Notes: generated from the sequence alone by a model not told the origin. A stretch of 64,000 nt of DNA from Nonomuraea montanisoli (GCF_013363975.1 NZ_JABWGN010000006.1:496001-560000), one strand, 5' to 3'; positions 44,181 to 52,786 are shown, numbered from the stretch's first letter. Numbers and translations: made by a program.

Positions 44181-44196
44181 GTCGAATCGATTCGAC
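44181..44196. promoter_or_regulatory. Perfect LacI-type operator GTCGAATCGATTCGAC
   Basis: A perfect 16-bp palindrome between promoter and start of the GH54 gene. Near copies: CGAAACGATTCG (51041) and CGAATCGATACG (52775), each upstream of another CBM13 enzyme gene. Confidence 0.75.
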
Positions 44197-44241
44197 AGGG
44201 CGACCGGACTCCGAGCGGCCCTCCCCCAAGGAGCACCCCCC

Positions 44242-45771
44242 ATGCGACCTTCCTCCGTTCCCTTACCGGGCCGTGCACCGCGTGGGCGGCGCCGTCAGGC
44301 GGCCGTCGTCGCGACCGTCACGGCGGTGCTCGCGGCGCTCGTCGCCACAGCCTTGACCTGGTCGGCGCCGGCCTCGGCGGCGACCACGCCACTGGTGGGC
44401 GCGGGATCGGGCCGGTGCCTCGACGTCAGCGGCGCCTCCCAGGCCAACGGCGCGCAGACGCAGATCTGGGACTGCAACGGTCAGTCCAACCAGCAGTGGA
44501 CCTCCACGAGCTCCGGTGAGCTGCGGGTCTACGGCGGCAAGTGCCTGGACGTCAACGGCGCGGCCACGGCGGACGGCACCACCGTGATCATCTGGGACTG
44601 CAACGGCCAGAACAACCAGAAGTGGCGCCTCAACGCCGACGGCACCGTCACCGCCGTCGGGGCGAACAAGTGCCTCGACGTGGCCGGCGCCGGCACCGCC
44701 AACGGCACCAGGATCCAGATCTGGACCTGCCACGGCGGCGCCAACCAGAAGTGGACCACCGGAACCGGCCCCAGTCCGACCCCCACCCCGACCCCGCCGC
44801 CGTCCGGCGCGCGCCCGTGCGACATCTACGCCTCGGGCGGCACGCCGTGCGTGGCCGCGCACAGCACGACCCGGGCGCTCTACGGCTCCTACAGCGGCAA
44901 CCTGTACCAGGTCAGGCGTTCCTCCGACAACACGACCCGCGACATCGGCGTCCGCACCTCCGGCGGCGTCGCCGACGCCGCGGCGCAGGACTCCTTCTGC
45001 ACCGCCACCACGTGCGTCATCACGGTCGTCTACGACCAGTCCGGGCGGGGCAACGACCTGTGGTACCAGGGCTCCAGCGTGGTCCCCGGCTCCCCTCAGA
45101 GCAGGCCCGCCATCGCGACGACCGAGTCGCTCACCGTCGGCGGCGCCAAGGTCTACTCCCTCTACATCAACCCCGGCAACAGCTACTGGCGGGACGGCCA
45201 CCTGACCGGCGTCCCCACGGGCAGCGCGCCCGAGGGCATGTACATGGTGACCAGCGGCACGCACGTCAACGGCGGTTGCTGCTTCGACTACGGCAACAGC
45301 GAGACCACCAGGAAGGCCGACGCCGCCGGCGCCATGGACGCCATCAACTTCAGCACCCAATGCTGGTTCGGCGGCTGCCAGGGAGGCGGCCCGTGGGTCC
45401 AGGCCGACCTCGAATGGGGCCTCTACCCCGGCGGCAGCCAGTCGTGGAACCCCAACCAGCGGGCCTTCCCCCACAAGTTCGTCACCGCCACGCTGAAGAA
45501 CAACGGCACATCCCGGTTCGCCATCAAGGGCAGCAACGCCCAGTCCGGCGGTCTGTACACCCTGTACGACGGCCCGCTCCCCAACGGCTACAGCCCGATG
45601 AGGAAGCAGGGGGCCGTCATCCTGGGCAGCGGCGGCGACTGCTGCAAGCCCGACGGCGGCGCCAACCTCAGCGCGGGCACCTTCTACGAAGGCGCCATGG
45701 TCGCCGGCTACCCCACCGACGCCGTGGAGAACGCCGTCCACGCCGACGTCATCGCCGCCGGCTACCGCTGA
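44242..45771 (+). CDS. Secreted GH54 alpha-L-arabinofuranosidase with N-terminal CBM13
   Basis: A 509-residue secreted enzyme. Signal peptide about 1-48; CBM13 about 51-173, unusually placed at the N terminus; a Pro/Thr linker ([11 protein letters not shown]); then a family 54 catalytic domain about 190-509: [40 protein letters not shown], the nucleophile region [20 protein letters not shown] then GNSETT, and [12 protein letters not shown] with the acid/base Asp. GH54 removes alpha-L-arabinofuranose from arabinoxylan and arabinan; fungal members usually carry a C-terminal CBM42, absent here. ATG 44242 has AAGGAGC upstream. It is convergent with the dehydratase operon. Confidence 0.93.
44392..44760 (+). 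repeat. CBM13 module 7 (GH54, N-terminal)
   Basis: Almost the same as module 6 but located before the catalytic domain; differs mainly in TTVIIWDC and TRIQIWTC. Confidence 0.92.
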
Positions 45772-45787
45772 CCCGCATCATCACCGG

Positions 45788-46984
45788 TCAGTCGCGGAAG
45801 GCGCCGTCCCGTCCCGGTGACCGCTCCGGCCGGAAGCCGTCGGCCACCGCCAGCAGCCGTCGTCCGGCGTGCTCCGGCCGGATGTGCGGGCCCTCGGCGG
45901 CCCTGGCGTCCGGCCGCGGGAGGTCGGCGTCGAAGGCGCGCTCGTCGAGGGTGATGCCCAGGCCCGGCGCGTCGCCGAGCACGAAGGAGCCGTCCTCGAC
46001 GTACAGGTCGAGCGAGATCCCCCACGGCGGGCGCAGGTCCTGAAGCTCGCTGGCCAGGTGGTTCGGCACCGACGTCGCGGCGTGCAGCAACGCGACCGGT
46101 GTGGTGCCGATCGGGCTCACCGGCAGGTCATGGGCGTGCGCCAGGGCGGACACCCGCAGGAAGTGGGACACCCCCCACACCGCGGCCGTCTGCACGATGT
46201 CGACCGCCCCCGCGGCCAGCAGCGGACGGAACTGTTCGAGCCCGGTGAGGTTCTCCCCGGTGGCGACCGAGGCGCGCACGCCACGGCCGACGGCGGCCAG
46301 GCCCTCGGCGTCCCACCGCCGCACCGGCTCCTCGATCCAGGTGAGATCCAGGGTGCGCTCCAGCTCGCAGACGTGCCGGACCGCCTGCTTGCGGGTCCAT
46401 GCCTCGTTCACGTCCAGCATGAGCCCCGGCCGCGATCCGCGCCCGGCCTCGGTCAGGACGTCGCGTACCAGCGTCAGGCGGCGCCGGTCGCGTTCGATGT
46501 CCAGGCCGCCCTTGATCTTGGCCGCGCGCAGGCCGTGCTCGGCGTAGGCCCGGTAGACCGAGACGAGCTCGTCGTCGGTCAGGCCGATGTCCAGGCCCGA
46601 GGCGTAGGCGGGCACCGTCCTGTCGCGTCCGCCCAGCAGGCGCCAGAGCGGTTCGCCGGCCGCCTGCGCCTTGATGTCCCACAGGGCGGTGTCGAGCGCG
46701 CCGATCGTGCCGAACACGGCGCCCGCGTGCCCCGCCTTGAAGGTATGCCGCAGCATGCGGTCGTAGAGCGCCGTCACGCCGCGCGGGTCCTCGCCCTCGA
46801 TCGCGGCGAACACGGCGTCGATCTGCACGTGCGGCCCGAGGCCGACGCCGGTGATGCCCTCGTCGGTGTCCACCAGGACGATCGGCACCGGGACGGTCCC
46901 GTCGGCGAAGACGCCGTTGGCGTCACCGACCGGGCGTCCCCATTCCTGGATCGTCGTCGCGGTCCTATACCCCGTGATCCGCAT
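45788..46984 (-). CDS. Mandelate racemase/muconate lactonizing enzyme family (sugar-acid dehydratase-like)
   Basis: A 398-residue enolase-superfamily enzyme. Motifs: Lys base in LRAAKIKGGLD, metal ligands Asp in GLMLDVNEAW, Glu in LTWIEEPVRRWD and Glu in SVATGENLTG; then AGAVDIVQTAAVWGVSHF and LPVSPIGTTPVALLHAA. These enzymes remove water from sugar acids such as fuconate, rhamnonate or galactarate, or racemise alpha-hydroxy acids. It starts one base after the permease stop, so it belongs to the ABC transporter operon. A fuconate- or arabinonate-type substrate would fit the fucosidase and arabinosidase neighbours, but this is inference. Confidence 0.88.
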   Translation of the reverse strand: MRITGYRTATTIQEWGRPVGDANGVFADGTVPVPIVLVDTDEGITGVGLGPHVQIDAVFAAIEGEDPRGVTALYDRMLRHTFKAGHAGAVFGTIGALDTALWDIKAQAAGEPLWRLLGGRDRTVPAYASGLDIGLTDDELVSVYRAYAEHGLRAAKIKGGLDIERDRRRLTLVRDVLTEAGRGSRPGLMLDVNEAWTRKQAVRHVCELERTLDLTWIEEPVRRWDAEGLAAVGRGVRASVATGENLTGLEQFRPLLAAGAVDIVQTAAVWGVSHFLRVSALAHAHDLPVSPIGTTPVALLHAATSVPNHLASELQDLRPPWGISLDLYVEDGSFVLGDAPGLGITLDERAFDADLPRPDARAAEGPHIRPEHAGRRLLAVADGFRPERSPGRDGAFRD

Positions 46985-51277: not shown

Positions 51278-51347
51278 TCAGAAAGGCGGCAGAAATGGCT
51301 CCTCCATTGACCTGTGTCCCTCTGAGAACGGCGAAGGAGCGCGGGTG

Positions 51348-52706
51348 ATGTCGCGGCACAGAGCGCTTCTCACCGCTGTCGCGACCGCGGCACTGCTCGT
51401 CCTCGGCGTGACGCAGGCGGCGCTGGGCAACAGCGCGACCACGTCGCCCACCGGGACGAGCGCCGCCGCGGGCACCGCGGGATGCGGCAAGTCCCCGACG
51501 CTGAGAAGCGGCCCCCAATCGATCACGACGAGCGGAAGGAATCGCACCTTCATCCTGCGGATCCCCGACAACTACACCAACACGACGCCCTACCGGTTGA
51601 TCTTCGGGTTCCACTGGAACGGCGGCACCGCCAACGACGTCGACTCGGGCGGGACCAGTGGATATCCCTGGTCCTACTACGGGCTCAGGGCACTGTCGAA
51701 CAACACCGCGATCTTCGTCGCGCCCCAGGGCCTCAACAACGGCTGGGCCAACTCCGGCGGCGAGGACATCACCTTCGTCGACGACATGATCCGGCGGATC
51801 GAGGCGGACCTCTGCGTCGAGACCACCCAGCGCTTCGCCCTGGGCTTCAGCTACGGCGGCGGCATGAGCTACGCCCTCGCGTGCGCCCGGGCGACGACCT
51901 TCCGCGCGGTGGCGGTCTACTCGGGCGGGCAACTCAGCGGATGCAGCGGCGGCACCGAGCCCATCGCGTACATAGGGCTGCACGGCCTCAGGGACCCGGT
52001 GCTCAACATCTCCGCGGGCCGGTCGCTGCGTGACAGGTTCGTCAGGAACAACGGCTGCACCCCCCAGAACCCGCCGGAGCCGGCGCAGGGCAGCCTGACA
52101 CACGTCGTCACCTCCTACTCCGGGTGCCGGGCCGGCTACCCGGTCGCGTGGGCGGCGTTCGACGCCGGTCACACCCCCGGCCCGGTCGACGGGAAGTCCG
52201 GTGACCTCGAACCCGGCGAGAACTCCTGGACCAGGCCAGTGGTGTGGAACTTCTTCGCGCAGTTCGGAGGCAGCGGTCCGACGCCGACTCCCACGGTCAC
52301 CCCGACGGTCGATCCGCCGGCGACGGGCGCGCTGAAGGGGGCGGGGTCGGGCCGGTGCCTGGACGTCAGCGGCGCCTCCCAGGCCAACGGCGCGCAGACG
52401 CAGATCTGGGACTGCAACGGCCAGTCCAACCAGCAGTGGTCGGCGACCGCGAGCGGTGAGCTGCGGGTCTATGGCGGCAAGTGCCTGGACGTCAACGGCG
52501 CGGCCACGGCGGACGGCACCGCGGTGATCATCTGGGACTGCAACGGCCAGAACAACCAGAAGTGGCGCCTCAACGCCGACGGCACCATCACCGCCCTCGG
52601 GGCGAACAAGTGCCTCGACGTCTCCGGCGCCGGCACGGCCAACGGCACCAGGATCCAGATCTGGACCTGCCACGGCGGCGCCAACCAGAAGTGGACCCGC
52701 CTCTGA
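51348..52706 (+). CDS. Secreted CE1-like esterase (feruloyl/acetylxylan or PHB-depolymerase type) with CBM13
   Basis: A 452-residue secreted alpha/beta hydrolase. Signal peptide about 1-27; then [20 protein letters not shown], the nucleophile elbow [15 protein letters not shown], the acid in [11 protein letters not shown] and the catalytic His in [10 protein letters not shown]. The pattern fits the carbohydrate esterase 1/PHB-depolymerase family, including secreted feruloyl and acetyl-xylan esterases. A Thr/Pro linker ([14 protein letters not shown]) leads to the CBM13. ATG 51348 is preferred; GTG 51345 is also possible. It is the first gene of the plus-strand operon with GH29 and the GH39-like enzyme. 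Confidence 0.88.
52332..52703 (+). repeat. CBM13 module 8 (CE1-like)
   Basis: Consensus-like except [10 protein letters not shown] in the first unit (shared with modules 1-2) and [15 protein letters not shown] in the third. Confidence 0.92.
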
Positions 52707-52774
52707 GCATCCCCGGCCGCACCCTCGGCAGCCGCGCGCAGAGGATCCCTCTCCTCACCCGATCGAAACCCGAT

Positions 52775-52786
52775 CGAATCGATACG
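52775..52786. promoter_or_regulatory. LacI-type site CGAATCGATACG upstream of GH29
   Basis: One mismatch from the perfect CGAATCGATTCG core at 44183, placed in the 102-base gap before the GH29 start; suggests that this gene also has its own controlled promoter. Confidence 0.55.

Follow-up and report, generated by a model that had tools for sequence, protein, structure and literature searches.

In Streptomyces, the xylobiose-responsive LacI repressor BxlR uses the operator CGAAACTTTCG, reported in the form CGAANxTTCG (PMC4743123, PMC12772271), and in bifidobacteria AbfR, AauR and BauR are local autoregulated LacI repressors located beside arabinofuranosidases and an ATP-binding cassette (ABC) importer (PMC5928203). 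Here we describe a system of this kind in a 64,000-nucleotide stretch of the Nonomuraea montanisoli genome (NZ_JABWGN010000006.1:496001-560000, hereafter the window), in which a palindrome designated operator A precedes genes of secreted, CBM13-bearing glycan enzymes. Sequence comparison makes it very probable that the LacI-family protein encoded at 34643 (LacI-A) acts as an autoregulated local repressor whose regulon serves the use of arabinose-rich plant glycans and whose operator is TCGAAYCGRTTCGA. This LacI regulon is new in operator and members and familiar in kind, and judged by its distribution it is genuine and well supported.

LacI-A resembles BxlR in its family, in the association with plant-polysaccharide genes, in the CGAA...TTCG half-sites and in a site before its own cluster, but the BxlR palindrome comprises 11 bp with an odd centre, whereas operator A has 12 bp, is centred on CG and is located before arabinosidase genes. 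Membership in the BxlR regulon is not indicated, as operator A is not the 11-bp CGAAACTTTCG and no bxlA-like linkage of LacI-A was found in the window. The BxlR-like palindrome of this locus is a second one, TGAAASTTTCA (operator B), which resembles CGAAACTTTCG (PMC4743123) and differs in the outer bases. The bifidobacterial repressors, compared here by their descriptions, come from other hosts and are associated with GH43, GH51, GH121 and GH127 enzymes, whereas GH54 and a GH39-like enzyme with CBM13 are found here. CebR of Streptomyces (TGGGAGCGCTCCCA) is a further case of LacI-type control of secreted glycan enzymes and CebR-like boxes occur elsewhere in the N. montanisoli genome, but the operator sequence is unrelated and no such box was seen in the promoters considered here; a CebR-type box as explanation was set aside. 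Literature searches for the operator string, and for a Streptomyces LacI together with a palindromic arabinofuranosidase operator, found no paper in the literature consulted.

Operator A in the genome and in related GH54 promoters

The operator A sites of the window and the GH54 promoter are located as follows:

44181-44196, no strand assigned: predicted operator A, GTCGAATCGATTCGAC, a 16-bp palindrome without mismatch, 3' of the putative promoter and 45 bp 5' of the GH54 ATG (44242)
51041-51052, no strand assigned: operator A with one mismatch, CGAAACGATTCG, upstream of the CE1-like gene
52775-52786, no strand assigned: operator A with one mismatch, CGAATCGATACG, 22 bp 5' of the GH29 start codon
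34354..34365, plus strand: operator A in degenerate form, CAAACCGATTCG, between the divergent genes ThuA-GSDH and lacI, two mismatches to CGAATCGATTCG
44109..44137, plus strand: predicted GH54 promoter with TTGACA (44109-44114) and TATGTGCT (44130-44137), nearly invariant in 14 aligned genomes

The first-pass annotation had reported the perfect palindrome in front of GH54 and the one-mismatch cores at 51041 and 52775, and all three are present. The core CGAATCGATTCG is a palindrome with a central CG (CGAAT-CG-ATTCG), as in the operators of LacI/GalR local repressor regulons; a central CG is usual in LacI-family operators. The annotation had also listed two ACCGATTC repeats at 34347 and 34357. 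Both copies exist in the region that separates ThuA-GSDH (minus strand, start at 34165) from the divergent lacI (start at 34643), and the second is part of the degenerate operator A, but as a pair alone they are at chance level (2 in the window, 1.02 expected).

Within the window, matches to CGAATCGATTCG with up to two mismatches are unremarkable (4 versus 2.34 expected, and 21 of 100 shuffles contained as many), and this count not exceeding the shuffles speaks for an origin of the sites as chance palindromes in GC-rich DNA. We consider this explanation extremely improbable given the rarity and clustering of the motif in the genome, its conservation across families and the zero or near-zero counts of reversed-pattern controls. 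The exact core occurs once in the whole 9.76-Mb genome and cores with at most one mismatch occur at 12 places, compared with none for the reversed control. Three of these 12 lie inside 8.6 kb of the window, all intergenic and 5' of genes for CBM13-bearing enzymes, and by a hand estimate the chance of any such triplet in 8.6 kb is about 5e-4. The flanking sequences of the other nine one-mismatch cores (L002-L007, L010-L012) were read and none resembles the promoter of such an enzyme gene. The refutation of a regulon that had been named beforehand was a motif equally frequent or rarer 5' of these genes compared with other places, and the frequency is clearly higher there.

Conservation of the GH54 upstream region points in the same direction. 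In an alignment of 14 regions, scored in 275 windows of 12 bp, no window is better conserved than the core at 44183-44194 (0.994 versus a median of 0.625), which ranks above TTGACA, TATGTGCT and the ribosome-binding site. With the GH54 catalytic domain as bait for the loci of relatives, an exact or one-mismatch core was found at the equivalent position, roughly 600-800 bp 5' of the catalytic domain, in the six genera Nonomuraea, Microbispora, Herbidospora, Sphaerimonospora, Sphaerisporangium and Micromonospora. A chance origin of the GH54 site is ruled out by this conservation; for the GH29 site the case against chance is less complete. The GH54 operator follows the predicted promoter and precedes the start codon, a common placement for a repressor site. 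An extra palindrome, GAACCGGTTC, is present farther 5' of GH54 in L014, L016, L019, L020, L024 and L035 and is degenerate in the window.

Among the operators suggested to be common to the CBM13 genes, those of CE1 and GH29 are weaker than that of GH54. At CE1, N. roseoviolacea subsp. carminata (L017) has an identical site and L013, L015, L016, L019 and L020 have weaker ones. The GH29 site was found in one relative, again L017, which is the only one of the fetched relatives with GH29 at this position and which carries TCGAATCGACACGA with two mismatches at the same place. On this comparison the GH54 site very likely belongs to the regulon, the CE1 site likely and the GH29 site probably.

The candidate regulator

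The regulators that have to be considered in the window are:

34643..35674, plus strand: LacI-family repressor of 343 aa (LacI-A), proposed reader of operator A (Pfam LacI 3.3e-15, Peripla_BP_3 3e-23)
43132 and 50204: GntR/FCD regulators encoded immediately 5' of the promoters of GH54 and CE1, respectively, with the 3' ends of the genes abutting these promoters

LacI-A can be aligned to the CcpA and PurR structures and combines a helix-turn-helix with an effector domain of the periplasmic-binding type, as is characteristic of the LacI/GalR family. The proposal of the first-pass annotation that it is the binder gains support from three lines of sequence evidence: co-occurrence, autoregulatory sites and a promoter match that is rare among the LacI genes of the genome. 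In a set of 54 Nonomuraea genomes, with orthologs defined by at least 64% identity to LacI-A, the exact core is present in 16 of the 16 genomes with an ortholog and in 2 of the 38 without (Fisher P = 7e-12, phylogeny not corrected for), and a scan of the genus with the 16-mer palindrome alone led to loci with a lacI ortholog (L108, L111, L112, L114, L123, L124 and L135). Two further comparisons gave no information: nearly all genomes of 50 GH54 loci carry the LacI, which makes presence or absence uninformative there, and in a class-wide count the degenerate form CGAAYCGRTTCG is present in 232 of 296 genomes, with CGAACCGGTTCG being frequent, and does not discriminate.

Autoregulatory sites were counted in the 350 bp that precede each of 78 distinct orthologs with at least 60% identity. 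A site precedes 49 of these genes at up to one mismatch and 69 at up to two, compared with a maximum of 7 and a mean of 0.17 for 179 permuted palindromes in the same regions; none of nine paralogs below 55% identity has an upstream site at up to one mismatch. The autoregulatory site that is typical of LacI/GalR local regulons is thus found across the orthologs, and the site of the lacI gene in the window is degenerate. In the close relative L173 a perfect ATCGAATCGATTCGCC is located 316 bp 5' of lacI. The recognition helix GV[SA]RSTVSYxL is constant in the orthologs, and seven of the nine distant paralogs have GVAVSTVSYVL. The genome contains 48 LacI-type genes above the Pfam cut-off, and among 30 inspected a promoter match to CGAAYCGRTTCG at up to one mismatch is present in two, LacI-A and its paralog LacI-C.

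LacI-C (G000:C77, around 446175) is the main rival, either as the real binder or because the sites are common to both proteins, and we regard this as unlikely. It is encoded with an ABC importer, GH127 and an MGH1-like hydrolase in one operon (G000:C77:446175-454000, L267), and its recognition helix, GVSRSTASYAL, is similar to that of LacI-A. Several observations weigh against LacI-A as the reader of operator A. Cross-binding by LacI-C is possible because CGAACCGGTTCG directly precedes its coding start (by about 13-40 bp, according to which start codon is used). Genomes G030 and G052 have exact CGAATCGATTCG cores before ThuA-GSDH, in G052 also beside GH54 and GH127, and both lack a LacI-A ortholog and contain a LacI-C-type binding protein; these cores (L224 in G030, L225 and L226 in G052) may be relics or be used by another LacI. 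Nine of the 78 lacI orthologs have no site even at two mismatches, and most Pseudonocardiales and some Micromonospora genomes with GH54 possess the LacI and lack the core upstream of GH54, which is why we assume shifts of the regulon or the operator in these groups. However, ten genomes (G004, G018, G027, G029, G033, G036, G041, G043, G048 and G049) carry a LacI-C-type binding protein and have neither CGAATCGATTCG nor LacI-A. As many genomes with the LacI-C-type importer are devoid of both, it is LacI-A with which the A-T core is associated, with G030 and G052 as exceptions.

The position of the two GntR/FCD genes would also be compatible with binding of the palindrome by one of their products. 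This is very improbable, since the operator before GH54 is kept in Micromonospora and Herbidospora without GntR1 in front of it and since operator sites precede lacI orthologs without an adjacent GntR gene. In addition, operators of FCD-type GntR proteins are usually of the form TNGTNNNACNA.

Cluster genes, operator B and tandem operators

The genes surrounding these sites encode:

30689..34165, minus strand: secreted protein with ThuA, GSDH, PKD, CBM6 and CBM13 (Pfam), a regulon member in relatives
44242..45771, plus strand: GH54 alpha-L-arabinofuranosidase with CBM13 (Pfam ArabFuran-catal 7.2e-136)
45788-50072: MR/MLE-type enzyme and ABC sugar importer (Pfam and PDB comparison)
51345..52706, plus strand: feruloyl-esterase-like (CE1-like) enzyme with CBM13 (phmmer to feruloyl esterase 8jh8, 5.1e-80)
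52809..54755, plus strand: GH29 alpha-L-fucosidase with CBM13 (Pfam Alpha_L_fucos 9.7e-89)
54779..56527, plus strand: GH39-like secreted enzyme with CBM13 (phmmer to 8uwt, 1.2e-24; GH39 xylosidases)

The GH39-like gene begins about 23 bp after the end of GH29 and probably forms one operon with it under a common promoter. The CBM13 domains of ten secreted enzymes (window 27794-56527) share a mean identity of 81% with a maximum of 95% (GSDH versus GH141) and are C-terminal, except for the N-terminal domain of GH54. Several of them resemble one another more than they resemble their counterparts in the orthologous enzymes of relatives, a pattern suggestive of gene conversion acting on a CBM13 cassette.

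In relatives, operator A is also found 5' of GH54 and of a GH59-GH54-GH127 group, in exact form before ThuA-GSDH orthologs (L210, L216, L220 and L225), often before a GH39-like gene with an operator of its own (L218, L220 and Micromonospora loci), and 5' of an operon divergent from lacI that encodes a solute-binding protein, two permeases and an MGH1-like hydrolase. Together with the clustering in the genome, this conservation argues for the regulon that the first-pass annotation had expected from the shared operators.

Operator B, which is absent from that annotation, occurs at 13 exact places in the genome. The copies relevant here are:

34567..34577, plus strand: operator B, TGAAACTTTCA, exact, 76 bp 5' of lacI and kept in L173
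44014..44024, plus strand: variant of operator B, TGAACGTTTCA, upstream of GH54, a conserved island in the alignment
51063..51073, plus strand: operator B, TGAAAGTTTCA, upstream of CE1, conserved in L013, L015-L017, L019-L021 and L035

In relatives, operator B is found beside operator A at most enzyme genes and not at the promoter of lacI and the importer. It is probably read by another LacI-type repressor, and since one copy (G000:C44:521022, L228) lies directly 5' of another LacI gene (LacI-B, G000:C44, 521060), which is followed by an ABC importer, this LacI is the likely binder. The sequence TGAATCATTCA at 43120-43130, just 5' of the GntR/FCD gene at 43132, resembles the BxlR-type CGAATCATTCG and is possibly another B-type site.

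Close pairs of operator A in the fetched loci are offset by exactly 13 bp in 59 of 65 cases, which are records from partly overlapping loci and not independent events. Such tandems are conserved at lacI and ABC-importer promoters in Nonomuraea, Herbidospora and Micromonospora (for example L215 5977/5990, L213 6001/6014 and L042 7151/7164) and form a 29-bp super-palindrome with four half-sites. With operators 13 bp apart, two ordinary LacI dimers would be nearly in contact. We tentatively suggest that two dimers could bind abutting operators cooperatively without distant looping, and that a second LacI-type repressor, which would control lacI as well, may gate the enzyme promoters.

Proposed mechanism and implications

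The combination of GH54, GH127, a GH39-like enzyme and a feruloyl esterase points to arabinose-rich side chains, of arabinan or arabinogalactan protein, as substrate, and GH39 enzymes described as acting on arabinogalactan side chains are consistent with this (PMC10688797). As the enzyme set suggests such side chains, an arabino-oligosaccharide is proposed as inducer. The cognate importer is absent in the genome of the window and in its closest relative (best match about 60% identity), so that the inducer would enter via another transporter here. In the proposed mechanism, LacI-A without inducer would occupy operator A as a homodimer. Seated between promoter and start codon it would most likely repress GH54, it would repress the feruloyl esterase and the GH29-GH39-like pair more weakly, and it would control its own promoter, divergent from ThuA-GSDH. 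The repression would be relieved by an arabinose-containing oligosaccharide that these enzymes set free, and operator B, present in these promoters and among them in the lacI promoter, might add an extra layer of broader hemicellulose control.

In rare actinomycetes, the CBM13-bearing enzymes directed against arabinose-rich plant glycans are numerous and have received little study, and the analysis provides a candidate pair of regulator and operator for them. Specialists in LacI regulation may find the 13-bp tandem operator and the putative dual control by two LacI-type palindromes of interest, and across several families one local repressor accompanies GH54.

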